A stretch of 37,188 nt of DNA from Candidatus Zixiibacteriota bacterium (GTDB lineage: Bacteria > RBG-13-66-14 > B26-G2 > WVWN01): positions 1-37,188 of the forward strand of contig JAUWLW010000029.1 of NCBI GenBank assembly GCA_030613505.1, in the 5' to 3' direction. This document shows positions 2,858 through 14,810 of this stretch, piece after piece. How positions within the stretch are numbered: position 1 is the stretch's first letter; every line of letters starts with the position of its first letter. The notes beneath the pieces are model-generated. The model made no database searches and was not told the origin of the DNA. It saw only the letters and a list, made by a program, of their open reading frames with translations. A program made the translations under genes and the position numbers.

Positions 2858-3151
2858 ATGAGGTTCTGGCGGACGCCGCTCGACGCCGACAAGATGAAAA
2901 TCCCGCGCGGCGAGCTGCACATAATCGTGGAGCGGTGTAAGGGATGCGAGTTCTGCGTGGAGTATTGCCCGCGGGACGTCCTGGAGATGAGCGACGAGTT
3001 CAACTCTAAAGGGTACCACCCGCCGAAGGCCGTTAGACCCGAAAATTGCGTGAACTGTGACCTGTGCGAGATGATCTGCCCGGAGTTCGCCATATATTGT
3101 TTAACGGTTGAGGAAGAGCCGGTACCGGTGGAAGGAGGGAAAACGTCGTGA
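2858..3151 (+). CDS. korD: 2-oxoglutarate:ferredoxin oxidoreductase, delta (ferredoxin) subunit
   Basis: A 97-aa two-cluster ferredoxin with motifs CKGCEFCVEYCP and CVNCDLCEMICP, each a CxxCxxCxxxCP ligand set for a [4Fe-4S] cluster. It is the electron-output subunit of the four-subunit KOR type and passes electrons from the TPP site to external ferredoxin or the Hdr modules. I choose the ATG at 2858 because GAGGAG lies 8 nt upstream; the GTG at 2849 is inside that site. First gene of the operon. Its TGA overlaps the GTG start of korA. Confidence 0.9.
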   Translation: MRFWRTPLDADKMKIPRGELHIIVERCKGCEFCVEYCPRDVLEMSDEFNSKGYHPPKAVRPENCVNCDLCEMICPEFAIYCLTVEEEPVPVEGGKTS

Positions 3152-4311
3152 AAGCGGACCCCATCGGCGTTAGGACCGGCACTTTGTACCTCGACGGCGA
3201 CCGCGCCACCGCGGAGGGGGCCATAGCGGCGGGATGTCGTTTCTTCGCCGGCTATCCCATCACGCCTTCCACGGAGTGCGCCGAGCTTATTAGTGAACGT
3301 TTTCCCGAAGTCGGCGGGATTTTCATTCAGATGGAGGACGAGATAGCGTCCATAACCGCCATCATCGGCGCGGCGTGGGGAGGGGCGCGGACCATGACGG
3401 TCACCTCCGGCCCGGGCATCAGCCTGATGATGGAGAACATCGGCCTCGCCATCATGCTCGAGACGCCGTGCGTCGTGGCCAACGTCCAGCGCGGCGGCCC
3501 GTCCACCGGCTTGCCGACGATGGTGGGTCAGGCCGACGTGATGCAGGCGCGCTGGGGCTCGCACGGCGACTACGAGATAATCGCGTACTCGCCGCAGTCG
3601 CCGCAGGAGGCGTTCGACTTCACCATTAAGGCGTTCAACATGGCGGAAAGGTATCGGACGCCGGTAATAGTGCTCCTCGACGAGTGCGTGGGGCATATGG
3701 TGGAGAAAGTGGTCATACCGCCCGCGGATACCATCGAGATCGAGCCCCGCCGTCTGACGGACGCCGCCAAGGACGAGTACCTGCCTTTCGCCTACGGCGA
3801 CGACCTGGTCCCGGATATGGCGATAGCCGGCATGGGGTACCGCTTCCACGTAACGGGCCTGACCCACGACGAGCGCGGCTACCCCGAGATGAGCGTGCGG
3901 TGCCAGGAGTGGCTCGTGCCGCGGCTGGTGGCGAAGATTCGCCAGAACGCCGACGACATCATCGAGTTCGACGAGGAGAATACCGACGACGCGGACGTGG
4001 TGGTGGTCTCGTACGGCATCAGCGCCCGCGTCTCGCGGATGGCCATAGACCTCGCCCGGGAGAAGGGGATAAAGGTGGGCTTTTTGAGGTTGCGCGCCAT
4101 ATGGCCTTTTCCCGAGAAGCGCGTAGCGGAGCTTGCCAAGAAGATAAAGTCGTACGTGGTCGTCGAAATAAACCTGGGTCAGATTTATTACGAAGTCCAA
4201 CGCTGCGCCGCGGGGCGGTGCGAGACGCTCCTGTCTCCTCACGCCGGCGGCGGCGTCCACGACCCGGAGGATATTTTCAAGGTAATCGAAAAGGGGGCCA
4301 AGGTAAAATGA
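3148..4311 (+). CDS. korA: 2-oxoglutarate:ferredoxin oxidoreductase, alpha subunit
   Basis: A 387-aa alpha subunit of the KOR family. The hallmark GYPITPST (about 35-42) binds the TPP/substrate region. 'MEDEIASITAIIGAAWGG', 'TVTSGPG', and a C-terminal domain with 'VVVSYGISARVSRMAIDLAREKGIKVGFLRLRA' (shown here in parts) are the usual core. With beta and gamma it oxidatively decarboxylates a 2-oxoacid to its acyl-CoA, reducing ferredoxin, or runs in reverse. The 2-oxoglutarate assignment follows family resemblance and the aconitase/Icd genes nearby; a branched or aromatic 2-oxoacid cannot be excluded. The GTG start has AGGAGGG upstream and a 4-bp overlap with korD. Confidence 0.9.
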   Translation: MKADPIGVRTGTLYLDGDRATAEGAIAAGCRFFAGYPITPSTECAELISERFPEVGGIFIQMEDEIASITAIIGAAWGGARTMTVTSGPGISLMMENIGLAIMLETPCVVANVQRGGPSTGLPTMVGQADVMQARWGSHGDYEIIAYSPQSPQEAFDFTIKAFNMAERYRTPVIVLLDECVGHMVEKVVIPPADTIEIEPRRLTDAAKDEYLPFAYGDDLVPDMAIAGMGYRFHVTGLTHDERGYPEMSVRCQEWLVPRLVAKIRQNADDIIEFDEENTDDADVVVVSYGISARVSRMAIDLAREKGIKVGFLRLRAIWPFPEKRVAELAKKIKSYVVVEINLGQIYYEVQRCAAGRCETLLSPHAGGGVHDPEDIFKVIEKGAKVK

Positions 4312-5216
4312 GCCCGAAAGGAGTACCGGAAGCGGTCATAGCCGCCGTAAGCTCGGAAGAACACCCCATCGCGCCGTTCTTGCGGATGGACCGCATGCCG
4401 CATATCTGGTGCAGCACCTGCGGCATCGGGACGGCCGTGAAGGCGCTGGTCGCGGCGTTCGAGAAGTTGGAAACGGACCTCGACAAGGTGTCCATCGTCT
4501 CCGGCATCGGCTGCACCGGCCGCGTCGCGGGGTACGTTCGCCTCGACAGCTTCCACACCACCCACGGCCGGCCTATTCCGTTCGCCACCGGCCTGAAGCT
4601 CGCCAACTCGGAGCTGACCGTCATCGTCTTCTCGGGCGACGGCGACCTCTCCGCCATCGGCGGCAACCACTTCATCCACGCCGCGCGCCGCAACATGGAC
4701 CTCAAGGTCATCTGCGTCAACAACTTCATCTACGGCATGACCGGCGGCCAGGCGGCGCCCACCACGCCCCTCACCGCGGTGACGTCCACCACGCCCTACG
4801 GCAACGCCGAGCCGCCGTTCAACCTCTGCCACCTCGCCGCGGCCTGCGGCGCCAACTACGTCGCCCGGTGGACGGCGCTGCACGTCCGGCGTTTGACCAA
4901 GGCCTTCGCGGAGATACTGGTCAAGCCGGGTTTCTGTTTCGTCGAGGTCATAACGCCGTGTTCGACGCTGTACGCGCGCAAGAACCGCCTCGGCACCGGC
5001 CTCGACATAATGAAGTACTACCACGACAATACGGTCATCGAGCACGGCGCGGAGCCGGCCGATACCGACATCGTCTTCGGCGGGCCGATAATTTGCGGCA
5101 AATTCGTAGATCGCGACCGGCCCACGTGGTTGGAGTACCAGGACCAACACCTCGGCGAAGTATTGGGCGATAAGTACTACCGCGGTAAGGTCCTCCAGGG
5201 AGCGGGCGAGCGATGA
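4308..5216 (+). CDS. korB: 2-oxoglutarate:ferredoxin oxidoreductase, beta (TPP) subunit
   Basis: A 302-aa beta subunit. The TPP motif GDGD (about 110-113) ends with NN near 138. Cys in WCSTCGIG (35, 38) and SGIGCTGR (69), plus a later Cys in 'TPCSTLYARKN', are the expected ligands of the internal [4Fe-4S] cluster. The start is the ATG in the ATGA overlap with korA. The same frame stays open upstream to 3684 but only as antisense-like coding inside korA, so the longer version is rejected. It ends in an ATGA overlap with korC. Confidence 0.92.
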   Translation: MSPKGVPEAVIAAVSSEEHPIAPFLRMDRMPHIWCSTCGIGTAVKALVAAFEKLETDLDKVSIVSGIGCTGRVAGYVRLDSFHTTHGRPIPFATGLKLANSELTVIVFSGDGDLSAIGGNHFIHAARRNMDLKVICVNNFIYGMTGGQAAPTTPLTAVTSTTPYGNAEPPFNLCHLAAACGANYVARWTALHVRRLTKAFAEILVKPGFCFVEVITPCSTLYARKNRLGTGLDIMKYYHDNTVIEHGAEPADTDIVFGGPIICGKFVDRDRPTWLEYQDQHLGEVLGDKYYRGKVLQGAGER

Positions 5217-5746
5217 GGCGCGAGATACGGATTACCGGTTTCGGCGGCCAGGGCGTGATACTTTCCGGCGTTATCGTCGGAAAGGCCGCCTCCATTTACG
5301 ACAACAAAAACGCCACCATGTCCCAGGCCTACGGCCCGGAGGCGCGCGGCTCGGCCTGCTCGACGCAGATCCTGGTCGACGACAAAGAGATCCTGTATCC
5401 CTATATCCGGAAATCGGACGTGCTGGTCGCGATGTCGCAGGAGGGCTTTTCCAAGTTCGTCGGCGAGCTGAAGGCCGACGGCGTCCTGATATACGACGAG
5501 GACATGGTCAACCCGGGCGAGGTTAAAAAGGGTATAAAGGTTTATCCCATAAAAGCCCAGCGGATGGCCGAAACCGACCTCGGCCGCAAGATAGTAACGA
5601 ACATCGTGATGTTGGGCTTCTTTACGGCGGTAACGCAAGCCGTCCCCAAAGAGGCGATGGTGGAGGCCATAAAGACCTCGGTGCCGAAGGGGACGATCGA
5701 CCTCAATTTAAAAGCTTTTGACCTCGGTTACGATGCCTTCGAATAA
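5213..5746 (+). CDS. korC: 2-oxoglutarate:ferredoxin oxidoreductase, gamma subunit
   Basis: A 177-aa gamma subunit with the diagnostic [10 protein letters not shown] (about 10-19) and '[18 protein letters not shown]', which in this family contribute to CoA binding. It completes korDABC. The start lies in an ATGA overlap with korB. Its 3' end overlaps the first codons of hdrA by 14 bp, which ties KOR production to the Hdr module. A second, divergent KorC-like protein is encoded at 17821-18363 and lacks the GGQG motif. Confidence 0.92.
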
Positions 5747-8700
5747 GGAAAAGGAAAACGGACCCAAGCCGGAGCCCGCGCTCGAAGCGGAGCCGAGTAA
5801 GGCCAAGGGCGTCCTCGTGTTGGGCGGCGGCATCGCCGGTATCCAGGCGGCACTGGATCTGGCGGATGCGCGCGTGAAGGTCTACCTGGTGGAACGCGGC
5901 GCCAGCATCGGCGGCCGGATGAGCCAGCTAGACAAGACCTTCCCCACGATGGACTGCTCGATATGAATTCTCGGCCCTAAAATGATGGATGTCGGTAGGC
6001 ATCCTAACGTCGAGCTGCTAACGCTTTCGGAATTGGTGGGCCTGCGGGGCGAGCCGGGGGACTTCGTCGCGACGGTGCGGCGCTACCCCCGGTACGTGGA
6101 CGAGGATGAGTGCGTGGGGTGCGGCGATTGCGAGGCGGTGTGCCCCATAGTCGCGCCCAACGTCTACGAACACGGCCTCGGCGCCCGCAAGGCCGTATTC
6201 CGGCCGTTCCCCCAGGCGGTCCCGCCCGTCTATATGATCGACCGCGACGTCTGCCTTAACGAGGAGGCGTTCCTGGCGTGCAGCAACTGCGCCGACGCCT
6301 GCCCCCGCGACGCCATAGACTTCGACCAGCGCGTCCGCAACGTCGACGTGAACGTGGGCGCGGTCATCGTCGCCACCGGCTTCGACGAGTTCGACCCGCG
6401 CGTAATGCGGAATTACGGGTACGGCGTCTACGAGAACGTGATGACCTCGCTCGAGTTCGAGCGGATGCTCAGCGCCTCCGGCCCCACGCAGGGCCGCGTC
6501 GTCCGGCCCACCGACCGCAAGCCGCCCAAGCGCATCGTCTTCGTGCAGTGCGTGGGCGCGCGCGGCGAGGGGGGGCAGCACTTCTGCTCCCGCTTCTGCT
6601 GCATGAACGCCGTCAAGGACGCTATGCTGGCGAAGATCCACGACCCCGACGTCACCTCCATGACCATCCTCTACACCGACCTCCGGGCGTTCGGCAAAGG
6701 GTTCGACCAGTTCGTGGGGCGCTCCCGCGAGGTGGACGAGATTCATTACGTGCGGGGCCGGCCGGCTAAGATCGTGGGCGACGACGACGGCGACCTTATC
6801 GTCTACGCCGAGGACACGCTTGCCGGCGAACAGGTGAAGCTGGAGGCGGACTTGGTCGTGCTCTCGGTGGCGGCGCGCCCCAACGAGACGGCGCGCGACC
6901 TGGCCGAAGCCCTCGGCGTCGAGCTCGACCGCTACGGCTTCTTCCGCAAGCGGGACCCGGATTCCTTCTACCTCGAGACCACGCGCGACGGCGTATACCT
7001 CTGCGGTTCGGCGGGCGGGCCCCAGGTCATCCCGGATTGCGTCGCCCAGGCCTCGGGGGCGGCGGCGCTCGCGGCCAAGCACGTCGCGGCGTGCCGCGTT
7101 CCGGACGAGGCGCTCGAGGTCGAGGCCGTCGATACCTCGGGCGAGCCGCGGGTGGGCGTCTTCGTCTGCCACTGCGGCGCGAACATCGCGGGCCTGTTGG
7201 ACATAGGCAACCTGGTCGAGCACGCCCGCGCCCTCGACGGCGTCGTCTACGCCTCGGACGAGTTGTTCGCCTGTTCCGATACCAGCCAACGCGCCGTACA
7301 GAACGCCATCGCCGAGCACAAACTCAACCGCCTGGTCGTCGCCGCGTGTACGCCGCGGACCCACGAGCCGGTTTTCCGCAAAGCCTGCGAGGCGGTGGGC
7401 CTCAACGCCTACCTTTTCGAAATGGTGAACATCCGCGACCAGTGTTCGTGGGTGCACGTCGGCGCGCCCCAGGCCGCGTTGGCGCGCGCCCGCGACCAGA
7501 TATCCATGGCGGTGGCGCGCGCCCGTCGGCTCGAGCCGCTGCATATGATCGACGTTCCGATGGAACGGGCGGCGCTGGTGGTGGGCGGCGGCATCGCCGG
7601 CCTGCAGGCCGCGCTCGAGATAGCGCGACAGCATTTCAAGACCATATTGGTGGAGAAGACGGATAAGTTGGGCGGCCGCTTGAACAAGCCGTCGTTGACC
7701 AAGCTCTACCCCTCCGGCCGCGACGCCGAGAAGCTCATCGACGAGAAGATAGTTCAGCTGGAGGAGGCCGGCGTCGAGGTGATGCTCAATACCGAGGTGG
7801 CGCGGGTCGACGGCTTCGTCGGCAACTTCGACGTCGAGCTCGCCGACGCCTCCGGCAAGAAGAAGGGTGCTACCAAGAAGGTCCGCGCCGGCGCCATCGT
7901 CCTCGCCACCGGCGCCGACTTATACGAACCCAAGGGCGAATACGGTTACGGCGAATACCCCAACGTAATTACGATTCTTGAGCTGGAGCAGAACTTCGCC
8001 GCCCACGACGGCCGCGCCGTCGTCGACGGCAAACAGCCCGAGAACGTCGCTTTCATCCAATGCGTCGGCTCGCGGTGCGAGGACGGCAACCCCGGCTGCT
8101 CGCGCTACTGCTGCCCGTCGGCGATAAAGCAGGCGCTGGCGCTGCGCGAATACGGCGCCAACGTGACGGTCTTCTACAAAGACATCCGGACCGTGAGCGA
8201 CGGCGCCGAGGAGATGTACCGCAACGCGCGCGGCAAAGGCGTCCTCTTCGTAAAGGTCGCCGAGGAAGAGCGGCCGGAAGTCGTGGGGGCCAAGGCGGCG
8301 GAGGCGGTGGAGGCCTACGACGTCCTGCTCAGAGCGCGAGTGCGCGCGCCGGCGGACCTCGTCGTCCTCTCCACCGGCATGGTCCCGCGCGAGCCGGACA
8401 CGACCATCCTGCAATCCATATTCAAAATACCGCGCGGCGACGACAAGTTCCTCATGGAGCGCCACCCCGAGCTCGGCCCGGTGGAGACGACGACCGACGG
8501 CGTCTTCATCGTCGGCTGCCTCCAGGCGCCCAAGGACATAGCGGACTCGCTGTCGCAGGCGTCGGCCGCCGCGGCCAAAGTCGCCCGGCTGCTGGCGCGG
8601 GACAGCGTGAAGCTCGAGCCCACCATAGCCGAGGTCAACGAGGACCTCTGCCGCGGCTGCGGCCAGTGCGCCGAAATCTGCGAGTTCAACGCGCCCGAGC

Positions 8701-8873
8701 TCGTCCAGCTCGAGTCCGGGGTTTACGTCGCGCGCATCAACGAGGCGTTGTGCAAGGGGTGCGGGACGTGCGCCGTGTGGTGCCCCACCGGCGCCGTAAT
8801 GGCCCGCCACTTCACCGACCTGCAGATCCACACCATGCTCGAGACCGCCCTGCAAGGGGAAAAGGGTAGATGA
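5733..8873 (+). CDS. hdrA: tandem double HdrA-like flavoprotein with selenocysteine (U78)
   Basis: Two HdrA modules in one chain of 1046 residues if the TGA at 5964-5966 is read as selenocysteine. Module 1: FAD site GGGIAG (31-36), then DCSI-U-ILGPKM (74-84), where HdrA homologues have Cys. Two [4Fe-4S] sites follow at about 127-137 and 174-190, then the [11 protein letters not shown] region. Module 2 starts near 474 with [14 protein letters not shown], has a second GGGIAG (618-623) but no Cys/Sec at the equivalent of U78. Two ferredoxin motifs ([22 protein letters not shown]) close the protein. The size and the MvhD and HdrD-like genes that follow resemble BamE of the class II benzoyl-CoA reductase complex, which includes no KOR. 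The downstream part has no ribosome site of its own, so readthrough is needed. Likely role: FAD electron bifurcation or confurcation. Confidence 0.88.
5964..6004 (+). promoter_or_regulatory. UGA-Sec codon and SECIS-like hairpin of the first hdrA
   Basis: The TGA (5964-5966) is followed after 20 nt by GGATGTC (5987-5993), loop GGTA (5994-5997) and GGCATCC (5998-6004), a 7-bp stem with one G-U. The distance to UGA and a G at the start of the loop fit the known bacterial SECIS pattern, which binds SelB. The same 23-nt block recurs in the second hdrA at the same spacing. Confidence 0.7.
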
Positions 8874-9544
8874 CGCCGGCCAAGGGTAAAACGGCTGCGA
8901 CCGAAGAGAAGAGTAAGGCCAAGGCCAAGGCGTCGCCCGAGAAGCCGCGCGCCGCGGCGAAGGGCGCGACGAAGCGGCCTGCCGGGAAGTCGTCGGCCGG
9001 CGGGGCGAAGGCCAAGGTTAAAGCCAAGAAAACCGCCGCTCCCCGCAAACCCCGTAAAACCGAACCCAAGGTCCGCGAAGACTTCACGCCGCGCATCGTC
9101 GTCTTCGCCTGCAACTGGTGCTCGTACGCCGGCGCCGATACCGCCGGCATCTCGCGCATACAGTATTCGCCCCATTTCAGGATAATCCGGGTGATGTGTT
9201 CGGGGCGGGTGCATCCGGCGTTCGTGTTGCGGGCGTTCGAGCTCGGCGCCGACGGCGTACTGGTTTCGGGGTGCCACTTCGGCGACTGCCACTACATCTT
9301 CGGCAACGAGCGCGCCGTAGAGCAGTTTGAGAAGACGAAGGCTCTCCTCAAAATACTGGGCTTGGAGGAGGGGCGCATACGGCTGGAGTGGATCAGCGCC
9401 GCGGAGGGCGTCAAATTCGGCCGCGTCATCGACGAATTCGTGGAGCAGGTCCGGGCGCTGGGGCCGTCGACGTTGGCGCCGCCGGGACGCGAGCTGCCGC
9501 GCGAGGCCGAGGCGTTCGCCGACGCCGCGGCCTTGGCCAAATAA
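8870..9544 (+). CDS. mvhD: MvhD/FlxD/BamF-type iron-sulfur protein with a Lys/Ala-rich N-terminal tail
   Basis: 224 aa. Residues from about 75 on are a complete MvhD-type domain: 'FACNWCSYAGAD' (C81, C84), 'VMCSGRVHPAFV', 'GADGVLVSGCHFGDCHY', 'RLEWISAAEG'. In methanogens and in Flx/Hdr complexes this protein passes electrons from the donor enzyme to HdrA. The first 68 residues are low-complexity, rich in Lys, Ala and Pro (KAKAKASPEKPRAAAK), like a histone H1 tail, and are not part of the family. It has Cys where some relatives have Sec. The start lies in an ATGA overlap with hdrA; the next gene follows after 11 bp. Confidence 0.88.
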   Translation: MTPAKGKTAATEEKSKAKAKASPEKPRAAAKGATKRPAGKSSAGGAKAKVKAKKTAAPRKPRKTEPKVREDFTPRIVVFACNWCSYAGADTAGISRIQYSPHFRIIRVMCSGRVHPAFVLRAFELGADGVLVSGCHFGDCHYIFGNERAVEQFEKTKALLKILGLEEGRIRLEWISAAEGVKFGRVIDEFVEQVRALGPSTLAPPGRELPREAEAFADAAALAK

Positions 9545-9555
9545 TATAGAGCGTT

Positions 9556-10737
9556 ATGGATAAGACCGCTACCGTTGACGAGCGCGCGTTGAAGGATGCC
9601 AACGCCTTCCTGTGCCTGGAGTGCGGCAAGTGCACGTCGACGTGCGTCGTCGCGCGCTACAACCGCTCGTACTCGCCCCGGCGGCTCATCAGCCAGGCGC
9701 TGGCCGGAGGGCGGCTGCCGACGTCTCAGGAACTCTCGATATGCCTGACGTGTATGGCGTGCGACGCGCGTTGCCCCTCCGGCGTCCGCTTTGTCGACCT
9801 CATCCGCGAGCTGCGGCGGGCGACGTACGGCGCCGAGTTCGCCGGCAACTGCAGCCACGGCGGCGCGATGCAGTCGCTGATGAAGCTTATGACCGCGGCG
9901 GAGTTGAATCAGGACCGCCTGGCCTGGGTCACGGACGACCTCAAGACGGCCGACGAGGGTGACGTGGCGTTCTTCGTGGGGTGCGCGCCGTACTTCGACG
10001 CCTTCTTCACCGAGCTCGAGGTGGATACCCTCGCCGGCGTCAAGGGCGCGGTCAAGGTCATCAACGCGCTCGGCATAGCGCCGGTAGTCCTGCCGGACGA
10101 GCGGTGCTGCGGCCACGACCTTCTGTGGGGCGGCGACGTCGAGCACTTCGAGATTCTCGCCCGCCGCAACGTCGAGCTCCTGCGGGCCAAAGGGGTTAAG
10201 ACCGTAGTCTTCAATTGCCCGGAGTGCTACTATACGTTCAAGGCCGATTACGCGGACGTCGTGGGGGCGCTGCCGTTTGAGGTCAAACACCTGAGCGAGT
10301 TCCTGGCGGAGCGCGCCGGGGAGTTAAATTTCGTCGACGACGAGGGGGAGAAGGTCACGTTCCAGGACCCGTGCCGGCTGGCGCGTTTCGCCGGCGTCGT
10401 CGAGCCGCCGCGGGAAGTTCTGACCGCCGCCGGCGTCGAGCTGGCGGAGATGCCGCGTTCGGGGAAGGGCGCGGTATGTTGCGCCGGCAACGGCTGGCTC
10501 AACTGCGACCGCTTCTCCAAGGAGGTCCAGCTCGAGCGGTTGCGCGAGGCCCGCGCCACGGGCGCGACGACGCTCGTCACGGCCTGCCCCAAGTGCGAAA
10601 TCCACTTCCGCTGCGCCATGAAGGACCCCAACCTGGGCGACGAGATAAAGATGGAGATACGCGACCTCGCCTCGACGGTGGCGTCGCGTTTGGAAAATAA
10701 AAAAGCGAAACCCAAAGGCAAAGAAACCGAGGAATAA
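9556..10737 (+). CDS. HdrD-like (HdrC-HdrB fusion) iron-sulfur protein
   Basis: 393 aa. The N-terminal ferredoxin region has C20-C23-C26-C30 and C63-C66-C69-C73. Two CCG domains follow: 'FVGCAPYF ... ERCCGHD ... NCPECYYTF' and 'DPCRLARF ... VCCAGNG ... ACPKCEIHF'. CCG domains carry the non-cubane [4Fe-4S] clusters that reduce disulfides in HdrB, or otherwise pass on electrons. Length and order match HdrD and the BamD subunit of class II benzoyl-CoA reductase. It follows the double HdrA and MvhD directly, so the three probably form one complex. The C-terminus is Lys-rich. Substrate unknown. Confidence 0.85.
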   Translation: MDKTATVDERALKDANAFLCLECGKCTSTCVVARYNRSYSPRRLISQALAGGRLPTSQELSICLTCMACDARCPSGVRFVDLIRELRRATYGAEFAGNCSHGGAMQSLMKLMTAAELNQDRLAWVTDDLKTADEGDVAFFVGCAPYFDAFFTELEVDTLAGVKGAVKVINALGIAPVVLPDERCCGHDLLWGGDVEHFEILARRNVELLRAKGVKTVVFNCPECYYTFKADYADVVGALPFEVKHLSEFLAERAGELNFVDDEGEKVTFQDPCRLARFAGVVEPPREVLTAAGVELAEMPRSGKGAVCCAGNGWLNCDRFSKEVQLERLREARATGATTLVTACPKCEIHFRCAMKDPNLGDEIKMEIRDLASTVASRLENKKAKPKGKETEE

Positions 10738-10767
10738 CCCCAACCCCTGCCGAAGGGGGTGAAGATA

Positions 10768-13278
10768 ATGTCCAATGAGGAAAAAGCGGCGGTCGCGACG
10801 GGCGAAGAACTCCGCATCGGCGTCTTCGTGTGCGACTGCGGCTCGAACATCGCCGGCACCGTCGATACCGCGGCGGTAACCGAGTACGCGGAGACGTTGC
10901 CGAACGTCGTCGCCGTCGTCCGCAACCGCTACACCTGCGCCGACCCGGGCCAGAACGAAATCAAAAAGGCGATCCGCGAGTACGACCTGAACCGCGTCGT
11001 CGTGGCCTCCTGCACGCCGCTCATGCACGAGCCGACCTTCCGCGCCTGCGTCGCGGGCGAGGGCCTGAACCCGTACCTGATGGAGATGGCCAACCTGCGC
11101 GAGCACTGCTCCTGGGTGCACGGGAACGACAAAGAGGGCGCGACGGCTAAGGCCAAGGACCTGGTCAAGAGCGCGGTGGCGCGGGCGGCGCAGTTGCAAG
11201 CGCGCGAGGAGACGCGCGTCCCGGTTACGCAGGCCGCGCTCGTCGTGGGCGGCGGCGTCGCCGGCATCCAGACCTCGCTCGACCTGGCGGAAGCCGGGTA
11301 CCAGGTCTACCTGGTAGAGAAGGAGCCGTCCATCGGCGGCATCATGGCCGCGCTCGACAAGACGTACCCCACGATGGACTGCTCGATATGAATACTCGGT
11401 CCCAAGATGATGGATGTCGGTAGGCATCCCAGGATCGAGTTGATGGCTTACAGCGAGGTCGAAGAGGTCGACGGGTACGTCGGCAACTTCAAGGTCAAGG
11501 TGCGCAAGAAGGCGCGCTACGTCCGCGAGGAGGATTGCAACTCCTGCGCCGAGTGTGCCGAGGTTTGCCCGGTCGTCGTCCCGGACGAGTTCCAGATGGG
11601 CCTGTCGTCGCGCAAGGCGGTTTACCTGCCGTTCCCGCAGGCGGTACCCGCGTCGTACATAATCGACATGGAAGCCTGTTTGGGAACCAACCCCATCGCC
11701 TGCGGCAAGTGCGAGGAGGCTTGCGAGAAGGTCTGCATCGACTACGACATGAAGGACGAGATCTTCGAGCTGGAGGTGGGCGTGGTCGTCGTCGCCACCG
11801 GCATGGACGTCTACGACCCCACCGAGTTGGACGAGTACTGCTACACGCGCTACGACAACGTCATCACGTCTATGGAATTCGAGCGGTTGATCTGCGCCGG
11901 CGGCGCGACGGAGGGCCACTTCGTCCGCCCCTCGGACCGCGACGTGCCCCAGCGCATCGCGTTCATACAGTGCGTGGGCTCGCGCAACAACGCCGGCGAC
12001 AAGGGTAACCGCTACTGCTCCAACATATGCTGCATGAACACCGTCAAGGATACGCTGCTGCTGCGCGACCACTACCCCGATTGCGAGTGTACTGTTTTCT
12101 ACGTGGACATCCGCGCCTTCGGCAAAGGTTTCGAGGACCTCTACATGCGTTCGCGGGAGGAGGGCGTAAAGTACATCCGCGGCCTGCCGGGCGAAATCCG
12201 CCAGGACCCGGAGACCAAGAACCTCTTCCTCACCGCCGAGAACACGCTCACCGGCGAGGTGCGGGAGTACGAGTTCGACGCTGTCGTCCTCTCGGTGGGC
12301 GTCATCCCGCGGCGGGACAGCGCCCTTGTAAAGAAGCTCCTCTCGCTGTCCACCACCGGCGACGGCTTCTACATGGAGGCCCACCCCAAGCTCAAGCCGG
12401 TGGATACGCCGACGCGCGGCGTTTACATCTGCGGCTGCTCGGAATCGCCCAAGGACGTCAAGGACTCGGTGACGCAAGCTTCCGCCGCTGCGGCCCGCGC
12501 CATGACCATTCTCAACGCCGGCCACGTAACGGTGGAGGCCATTACCGCCGCCATCGACCCGGCCCTCTGCACCGGCTGCGGCCTGTGCGCCAAGGTGTGC
12601 CCCTTCAACGCCGTTGAAGTGGACAAGGAGAAAAAGACCGCCTGGGTGGTCTCGGCGATGTGTATGGGGTGCGGCAACTGCGGCGCGACGTGCAACCAGG
12701 GCGCGGTGACGATGGGCCACTTCACCGACGACCAGTACTACGCCCAGATAGACGCGCTGCTCGACGAAGACGCGGCCGACAAAGTGTTCACCTTCGCCTG
12801 CAACTGGTGCTCGTACGCCGGCGCCGACAACGCCGGCATCTCGCGCATCCAGTACCCGGCCTCGCCGCGCCTGGTCCGGACGATGTGCTCCGCCCGCGTT
12901 ACGGAGGACTTCGTCCTCTACGCGTTCGTGAAGGGCGCGCCCGTCGTGCTGGTCTCCGGCTGCCACTTCGCCGACTGCCACTACATCGACGCCAACCGCC
13001 AGACCGTCAAGCGCGTCTACCGGCTGTGGGACAAGCTGGAGAAGCTGGGCATCCGTCCGGAACGGCTGCAGCTGGAATGGATAAGCGCCGCCGAGGGCCA
13101 GAAGTTCGCCCGCGTCATGCGCGGCCTGGAGGAGATGCGCCAGCAGGTCACGGCCGAAGAAGTCGAGCATACCAAAAAGGTCCTGGCCGAGGAGTGGGAG
13201 AAGAAGCTCGCGCGCGAGGCCAAGCGCAAGAAGAAAGCGGAAGCGGATGAGTCAAGAGACGAAGTTCAAGTGTCTTAA
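10768..13278 (+). CDS. hdrA: HdrA-MvhD fusion flavoprotein with selenocysteine (U208)
   Basis: 836 residues if the TGA at 11389-11391 is read as Sec. Order: N-terminal HdrA domain (VFVCDCGSNIAG, about 18-29), FAD site GGGVAGIQ, DCSI-U-ILGPKM (204-214), ferredoxin clusters near 257-267 and 304-323, the CSNICCMNTVK region, two C-terminal ferredoxin motifs (about 601-642), then a full MvhD domain (673-788: FACNWCSYAGAD ... SGCHFADCHY ... LEWISAAEG). A basic coiled tail ends it. Fusing MvhD to HdrA fixes the electron entry site to the flavin. The ATG at 10768 has AGGGGG upstream and is preferred to the GTG at 10759. It is co-transcribed with hdrC and hdrB and probably forms a HdrABC-type complex with them. 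Confidence 0.9.
11389..11429 (+). promoter_or_regulatory. UGA-Sec codon and SECIS-like hairpin of the second hdrA
   Basis: The TGA (11389-11391), a 20-nt spacer, then GGATGTC (11412-11418), loop GGTA (11419-11422) and GGCATCC (11423-11429). It is identical in sequence and spacing to the element in the first hdrA, while the spacer differs only at synonymous sites. Confidence 0.7.
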
Positions 13279-13405
13279 ATGCGGCCACGAGTACGTCGAG
13301 AAGTACGCGCCCGACGACGACATCGAACGGGCGTGCCCCAAGTGCCACTCCAATAGCGTCCGCCCCGAGAAGCCGAAGAAGGCCGATGTCGCCGAAAAAA
13401 AATAA
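13247..13405 (+). CDS. small zinc-ribbon protein between hdrA-mvhD and hdrC
   Basis: A 52-aa frame starting ATG AGT CAA GAG, inside the 3' end of the preceding gene (+1 frame), and ending 20 bp inside hdrC. The protein reads MSQETKFKCLKCGHEYVEKY, then a short acidic stretch, then CPKCHSNSVRPEK and a Lys-rich tail. CLKC and CPKC form a CxxC-x17-CxxC zinc or iron (rubredoxin-like) knuckle. The overlap on both sides and the intact Cys pairs argue that it is real. It may be an assembly factor or a small electron-transfer or structural subunit of the Hdr complex. No named family is claimed. Confidence 0.7.
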   Translation: MSQETKFKCLKCGHEYVEKYAPDDDIERACPKCHSNSVRPEKPKKADVAEKK

Positions 13406-13892
13406 CGAGAAAAAAGGCCGCGGCCCGACGGTAACGCTCGACTTCGAGTTCAAGAAGCGGCTCGAGAAAATCGTCGACGGCGCGCTGGTCAATTATTGCT
13501 ACCAGTGCGGCGCCTGCGTCGGCGACTGCCCCAGCACGCGGTACGTACCGGAATTTAACCCGCGGGAGATAATGCTCAAGGTCCTCTACGGCTTCGCCGA
13601 GGAGCTGGTGGGGCCGGCCTCGCCGGTGTGGTACTGCACCAACTGCTACAATTGCTACGAGCGCTGTCCGCAGAACGTCAAGCCGGTGGAGATAATCATC
13701 GCCATCAAGAACCTCATGGCGCGGCGCGGCATCTACCCGGAGAAGGCGCAAGTGGGCGACCTGGTCGAAATGGTTCTGGAGACCGGCCGGACCGCGCCGG
13801 TGACGGCGATGACCAAGAAGCTCCGCGAGGAGTTGGGGCTGCCGCCGCTCGAGGCCGTCGACACCGACGAGCTGAAGAAGATATTGGAGTAA
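13386..13892 (+). CDS. hdrC: heterodisulfide reductase subunit C-like ferredoxin
   Basis: 168 aa with two [4Fe-4S] motifs, CYQCGACVGDCP (C38, C41, C44, C48) and CTNCYNCYERCP (C84, C87, C90, C94), typical of HdrC. It carries electrons between HdrA and HdrB. The C-terminal third is helical and charged and probably contacts HdrB. The start ATG lies inside the end of the zinc-ribbon gene, and hdrB follows after 18 bp. In organisms without coenzymes M and B, HdrABC-like complexes use other acceptors, so the true substrate is open. Confidence 0.9.
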   Translation: MSPKKNNEKKGRGPTVTLDFEFKKRLEKIVDGALVNYCYQCGACVGDCPSTRYVPEFNPREIMLKVLYGFAEELVGPASPVWYCTNCYNCYERCPQNVKPVEIIIAIKNLMARRGIYPEKAQVGDLVEMVLETGRTAPVTAMTKKLREELGLPPLEAVDTDELKKILE

Positions 13893-13910: not shown

Positions 13911-14810
13911 ATGACGGACGCCGAACCTAAAAAATTCGCCTTCTTCCCCGGGTGTCTGATACCGGTGCGGTACCCGCAGATGGAGGCCGCGATCCGCAAG
14001 ACGCTGCCCAAGCTCGGCGTCGAGATCGTCGACCTCCCCGGCTTCACCTGCTGCCCGGACCCGATCTATTTCAAATCGTACGACAAGCTGGCGTGGCTCA
14101 CGGTCGCGGCGCGCAACCTGGCCGTCGCGGAGGAGGCGGGCCTCAACCTATTCACCATCTGCTCGGGCTGCACCGCGACGCTGTCGGAGACGTACCAGCA
14201 ACTCAACGCCAACAAGAACTTGAAGGAAGAGGTCAACCAGCGGCTGGCGCGCGTGGGCAAGGAGTACCGGGGGACGTCGACGGTGCGGCACGTCGCGACG
14301 GTCATCCGCGACGAGGTGGGCGTCGAAGCGGTGGCGGCGTCGGTGGTGCGGCCGCTGGAGGATTTGCGGGTGGCCATCCACTACGGCTGCCACCTCCTAA
14401 AGCCGTCGCACATTATGAAGGTCGACGACCCCGACGACCCCCATATATTGGACGACCTGGTCGCGGCCCTAGGCGCTACGCCCGTCCGCCACGACGAATG
14501 GATCCTGTGCTGCGGCAAGGCCTGCAAGCACGAGGAGGCGCCGTCGGAGATGATGTACGAGCTGCTGAAGTCGGTGGCCGCGGCGGAGGCGGACGTTTTG
14601 GGCGTCGTGTGCCCGTCGTGCTTCACCGAGTTCGACCTGGGCCAGCTCCGCCTCGCGCGGCAGCACGACGACGAGAGCCTCAAGACGCCCGCGGTTTACT
14701 ACTTCCAGTTATTGGGTCTGGCGCAGGGTTTAACGCTGGAGGAAGTGGGCCTCCACCGGCACAAAGTCAAGGCGCCGGCGCTGGAGAAGTACGCCGCCGC
14801 CGCGGTGTAG
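13911..14810 (+). CDS. hdrB: heterodisulfide reductase subunit B-like protein
   Basis: 299 aa with two CCG domains. The first is C15-x31-C47C48-x35-C84xxC87; the second is C160-x39-C200C201-x32-C234xxC237. This is the CX(31-39)CCX(32-38)CXXC pattern that ligates the two non-cubane clusters at the HdrB active site, so the site looks complete. It is the last gene of the kor-hdr operon and is followed by a terminator 22 bp after the stop. The start has only a weak ribosome site (GGGCGAGACTC before ATG). Confidence 0.92.
   Translation: MTDAEPKKFAFFPGCLIPVRYPQMEAAIRKTLPKLGVEIVDLPGFTCCPDPIYFKSYDKLAWLTVAARNLAVAEEAGLNLFTICSGCTATLSETYQQLNANKNLKEEVNQRLARVGKEYRGTSTVRHVATVIRDEVGVEAVAASVVRPLEDLRVAIHYGCHLLKPSHIMKVDDPDDPHILDDLVAALGATPVRHDEWILCCGKACKHEEAPSEMMYELLKSVAAAEADVLGVVCPSCFTEFDLGQLRLARQHDDESLKTPAVYYFQLLGLAQGLTLEEVGLHRHKVKAPALEKYAAAAV

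Follow-up and report, generated by a model that had tools for sequence, protein, structure and literature searches.

We have found that the two hdrA genes in a 37,188-nt stretch of DNA from a Candidatus Zixiibacteriota bacterium (contig JAUWLW010000029.1, positions 1 to 37,188, referred to here as the window) each contain an in-frame UGA followed by the same small hairpin. We are highly confident that both hairpins are bacterial selenocysteine insertion sequence (bSECIS) elements directing selenocysteine (Sec) at the UGA, with SelB binding and Sec insertion predicted from sequence. Conservation, compensatory change and comparison with homologues that carry Cys together show that the hairpin and not the codon bias of the genome sets codon choice at this site. 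In the mRNA the codons GAT-GTC-GGT-AGG-CAT-CC would form a 7-bp stem with a GG-starting loop 27 nt past the UGA; SelB with Sec-tRNA(Sec) would bind this hairpin, Sec would be inserted in place of termination, and the product would be an HdrA with CxxU where homologues carry CxxC. The features concerned are these:

5733..8873, + strand: hdrA copy 1, 1046 amino acids with predicted Sec78; two tandem HdrA-type flavin adenine dinucleotide modules; NCBIfam HdrA2/HdrA matches with the TGA read through
5964..5966, + strand: putative Sec-coding UGA of copy 1, motif DCSI-U-ILGPK; homologues have Cys at the aligned position
5967..5981, + strand: spacer of copy 1, 15 nt, synonymously free, 4 differences from copy 2
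5987..6004, + strand: predicted bSECIS hairpin of copy 1; stem 5987-5993/5998-6004, 7 bp with one U-G; loop GGUA at 5994-5997
10759..13278, + strand: hdrA copy 2, 839 amino acids with predicted Sec211; HdrA2 plus a C-terminal FlpD/MvhD domain
11389..11391, + strand: putative Sec-coding UGA of copy 2, an in-frame TGA
11412..11429, + strand: predicted bSECIS hairpin of copy 2, same sequence; stem 11412-11418/11423-11429, loop 11419-11422

An earlier note on this DNA had pointed to an identical block 15 nt past each UGA, to four synonymous differences between the 15-nt spacers, to the atypical codons GAT, GGT, AGG and CAT, and to a 7-bp stem closed by a GGTA loop, and all of these observations held. 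The 23-nt block (ATGATGGATGTCGGTAGGCATCC) is identical at 5982-6004 and 11407-11429, and between the spacers (ATTCTCGGCCCTAAA and ATACTCGGTCCCAAG) there are four differences in all, every one of them synonymous. The minimum free energy (MFE) fold of a 30-nt stretch is GGAUGUC-GGUA-GGCAUCC, at -10.8 kcal/mol (z -3.2) for copy 1, and the MFE of the copy 2 hairpin is -10.4 kcal/mol. Measured against seven neighbouring operon frames (3292 codons; one frame, 4409-5173, is without a family match), the codons of the block are scarce: GAT accounts for 13.5%, GGT for 7.7%, AGG for 2.3% of Arg codons and CAT for 31%, and the probability of drawing exactly these synonymous codons is 3.7e-5 per gene. A generalised motif (GATGYCGGTNGRCATC) has exactly 2 occurrences in the 2.86-Mb genome, both of them the hdrA sites.

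The published bSECIS model calls for a loop of 3-9 nt, a stem of 4-16 bp, a G within the first two loop positions, a UGA-to-loop spacing of 16-37 nt and an MFE at or below -7.5 kcal/mol (PMC13188914). With a 4-nt loop beginning with GG, 7 bp, 27 nt between UGA and loop (5967-5993 in copy 1) and -10.8 kcal/mol, the hdrA hairpin falls within all of these bounds. In both copies, which are homologous to HdrA, the UGA takes the place of a Cys in the CxxC motif, and the same genome encodes a tRNA-Sec (anticodon tca), SelA, a full-length SelB (646 amino acids, with SelB-wing_2 and wing_3 domains) and a SelD that carries an in-frame UGA of its own. An Rfam scan of the window returned no match, which is uninformative for a bSECIS-type element, and formate dehydrogenase, sought as an extra selenoprotein control, gave no match in five genomes. 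We note that the SelD of the genus (L241 = G000:C23, L240, L242, L243 and L239) reads AAG-U-AAK and has a hairpin of another kind, longer and again with GG in its loop.

Synonymous constraint and covariation among relatives

To compare synonymous variation we retrieved relatives with a DNA pattern in which the TGA and the amino-acid frame (D..[GA]RHP) were fixed and synonymous third positions were free, such that the last base was C or T for Asp and His codons and unrestricted for Gly and Arg codons. Run on one genome per species, the pattern gave at least 118 stretches; these and the copies that protein searches turned up in relatives make up a set of 135 UGA-containing hdrA genes among the matches listed, spanning at least 15 named phyla, mainly Chloroflexota and Thermodesulfobacteriota. 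Within codons +8 to +12, counted from the UGA, GAT is used in 126 of the 135, GGT in 126 of 127 Gly codons and CAT in 130 of 135, while the Arg codon of the block is restricted to CGG, CGA, AGG or, in an alternative stem, CGT. Relative synonymous entropy is 0.03-0.58 at codons +8 to +12, against 0.55-1.0 over the rest of the stretch from codon -20 to codon +49 (0.55-0.96 of the maximum in spacer codons +1 to +5), and codon choice is alike in loci above 60% and below 50% GC. Had the stem changed freely at synonymous sites in relatives with the UGA retained, this would have spoken against the earlier note; instead, the stem and loop codons are near-invariant while their flanks vary. The 1.24 Mb of sequence that was fetched contains 132 occurrences of the motif; 131 lie 24 nt downstream of the first base of a TGA, and the last one is cut off by the end of its locus. 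In all UGA-containing hdrA that were folded, the loop starts with GG (129/129).

Changes within the stem are compensatory. Stem cells are paired in 94% of cases, compared with 24-59% when the positions are slid by 1-3 nt. The second pair from the loop joins an Ala/Val codon to the Arg codon, and its two sides change together: GCC/CGG is found 64 times (C-G), GTC/CGA 37 times (U-A), and GTC/CGG 14 and GTC/AGG 9 times (U-G), with 0 cases of GCC/CGA among the 135. On a protein tree built with the hairpin codons left out, Ala/Val differs in 14 independent pairs; the Arg codon changes along with it in about 8 of these and the opposite way in 0 (median p 0.008). In eight Chloroflexota copies the hairpin is replaced by GAC-GCG-GCG-CGT, giving the stem UGACGC-GGC-GCGUCA with a loop one nucleotide closer to the UGA. 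This HdrA clade (ILAPKMVDAARHP; L093, L126, L161, L174, L176, L178, L186 and L196) differs in its codons throughout.

As controls we used 40 Cys HdrA from protein-search loci, among them C17 and C7 from the genome described here. An MFE at or below -7.5 kcal/mol was found in 9/40 of these compared with 125/129 Sec HdrA, and a GG loop at the same place in 3/40 compared with 120/129, the other 9 Sec copies having it one nucleotide closer to the UGA. Where their peptides are similar, Cys HdrA favour ordinary codons (GAC in 12/15, GGC in 14/17, CAC in 24/31), and a Cys-pattern scan of 386 relatives found one Cys HdrA with an exact DxGRHP-type peptide. The homologues from the same genome that have Cys at the Sec position (C17, C7 and C55) lack the hairpin-type codon choice; C17 and C7 use GAC/GAG, GGC, CGC and CAC. 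Arg at the position of the 3' arm is present in 10/40 Cys HdrA and in all Sec HdrA, pattern-free finds included, which hints that the RNA fixes residues as well as codons, although pattern-derived copies cannot be counted for this purpose.

Two further observations concern codon use in and around the element. The Arg codon AGG (5997-5999 and 11422-11424), which gives the loop GGUA, is used by all hdrA copies of the genus that were compared (L036, L037, L065, L066, L068 and L069), while nearly all other lineages use CGG or CGA with the loop GGUC; AGG pairs no better than CGG. A preference of SelB in this genus for AGG/GGUA is unsupported, as the loop of the Sec-SelD hairpin in the same genomes has GG and no GGUA. 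We also note that the Ile codon at -1 (5961-5963 in copy 1) is ATA in 69/113 UGA-containing hdrA (61%), compared with 23/236 (about 10%) at two other conserved Ile codons (Fisher p 2e-23, relatedness ignored). A 5' context effect on UGA decoding is possible, and the constraint may extend upstream of the UGA.

Weighing the alternatives

Several observations weigh against a bSECIS reading of the block. Because the gene is so GC-rich, folding energy cannot decide the matter by itself: synonymous randomisation matches it in 3.2% of draws for gene 1 and 8% for gene 2, and 48-nt windows are ordinary relative to shuffles (z -0.9 and -0.6). The outermost G-C pair (5987-6004) is paired in only 81.5% of relatives, often being lost because it needs a G-ending codon, so that the conserved core is 6 bp. 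Finally, because the D..[GA]RHP frame was imposed at retrieval, the amino-acid invariance of pattern matches is partly by construction, though the synonymous results are unaffected. It is the comparative evidence, more than the stability of the stem, that carries the case for a SECIS as judged from sequence.

One could suppose that the protein alone is under constraint, the peptide MMDVGRHP being required and the identical DNA a coincidence of codons; the motif region is indeed conserved in Sec-HdrA and, given the same peptide, the same five codons would turn up in two genes by chance about 3% of the time. Yet the codons in question, scarce in this GC-rich genome, reappear from phylum to phylum whatever the GC content, ordinary codons are found in Cys HdrA whose peptides are similar, and Ala/Val is coupled to the Arg codon in a compensatory manner, which together make this explanation highly improbable and support the proposal of the earlier note that selection acts on RNA structure beyond the peptide. 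A recent conversion event between the hdrA paralogues might explain why the block is identical in both and why the rare AGG is common to all genus copies compared, and a short tract limited to the hairpin could account for the shared AGG. We nevertheless consider conversion distinctly unlikely: the 15-nt spacer next to the block carries four differences, identity of the flanking protein is 52%, no shared private changes are seen beyond the hairpin, and many phyla have this hairpin in contexts independent of one another. That UGA has been reassigned, that the genes are pseudogenes or that the UGA is simply read through is barely conceivable. The sole point in favour is that the frame is interrupted by UGA, but this UGA aligns with Cys, the frame stays open for about 970 (copy 1) and 630 (copy 2) further codons, and the genome has complete Sec machinery. 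Moreover, copy 1 itself terminates at an ordinary TGA (8871-8873); TGA is therefore not globally reassigned and is still a stop in this genome.

Relation to known selenoproteins

Both the HdrA family as selenoproteins and bSECIS as an element are already known. Sec-containing HdrA has been described in Deltaproteobacteria, Clostridia and methanogens, and the family named as a selenoprotein family (PMC1794560); the genes discussed here belong to the same family and their cluster likewise includes FlpD/FrhD and a GlpC-like (CCG-domain) gene. Unlike in those systems, neither the FlpD nor the GlpC-like neighbour has an in-frame UGA here, and a 2-oxoacid:ferredoxin oxidoreductase precedes the cluster. 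The hairpin resembles the bSECIS of E. coli fdh genes and the bSECIS consensus in its site in the coding region just past the UGA, its short stem, its small GG-starting loop, its 27-nt spacing and an MFE below -7.5 kcal/mol, while archaeal SECIS elements lie mostly in the 3' untranslated region, outside the gene (PMC13188914). What sets the HdrA hairpin apart is a sequence that stays nearly the same in at least 15 phyla. This near-invariance and the coupling of Ala/Val to the Arg codon are the noteworthy parts of our analysis; they are unstated in the literature searched, though Zhang and Gladyshev (2005), the original bSECIS paper, may have them.

We lean, by a modest degree, towards the view that one RNA module of ancient origin forms the HdrA SECIS, preserved near letter for letter across phyla, and that it dictates protein sequence as well as codons. 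In favour of this, Sec-HdrA keep Gly-Arg-His where Cys-HdrA vary, and an exchange between Ala and Val is linked to which synonymous codon encodes the Arg two residues further along. In comparative terms the element is a strong case of an RNA signal that overrides codon choice inside a conserved protein motif, and its presence supports two selenoproteins within an energy-conserving Hdr cluster. The 135 sequences provide ready compensatory variants for a test of SelB binding, namely GCC/CGG, GTC/CGA and the Chloroflexota stem. If the UGA is not read as Sec, annotation of such genomes will show hdrA as truncated or split; under the standard code, the hdrA open reading frames (ORFs) in the window begin only past the UGA, at 5982 and 11407.

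Operon layout and further observations

The gene order is korA, an ORF, korC, hdrA(Sec), flpD, a CCG-domain iron-sulfur protein, hdrA-flpD(Sec), hdrC and hdrB. The neighbours of the two hdrA genes are:

3148-4311, + strand: korA, upstream, 2-oxoacid:ferredoxin oxidoreductase; NF006412 best match
4409-5173, + strand: ORF between korA and korC, in the place expected for korB; no family match in this frame
5213-5746, + strand: korC, upstream; NF006323 best match, slightly below cut-off
8870-9544, + strand: flpD/mvhD, between the two hdrA genes
9556-10737, + strand: CCG-domain iron-sulfur oxidoreductase (GlpC-like), between the two hdrA genes
13386-13892, + strand: hdrC; TIGR03290 best match, below curated cut-off
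13911-14810, + strand: hdrB; TIGR03288 best match, below curated cut-off

Copy 2 matches NF040770 (HdrA2) at 1151.8 bits, above the cut-off, and its C-terminal FlpD domain is PF02662; this domain (within 10759-13278) has CNWCS where Sec might be expected. FlpD (8870-9544) and the GlpC-like protein (9556-10737), which have no in-frame UGA here, are both selenoproteins in some Deltaproteobacteria. In one relative, G002, the protein-search match to copy 1 (L070, G002:C1:2033500-2038000) starts only at residue 372, the N-terminal part being missing or in another frame, perhaps through an assembly error. Lastly, ORFs of 948 amino acids (10324-13170, - strand) and 538 amino acids (6018-7634, - strand) lie opposite the hdrA genes, and antisense ORFs of such length are expected because of the high GC content.
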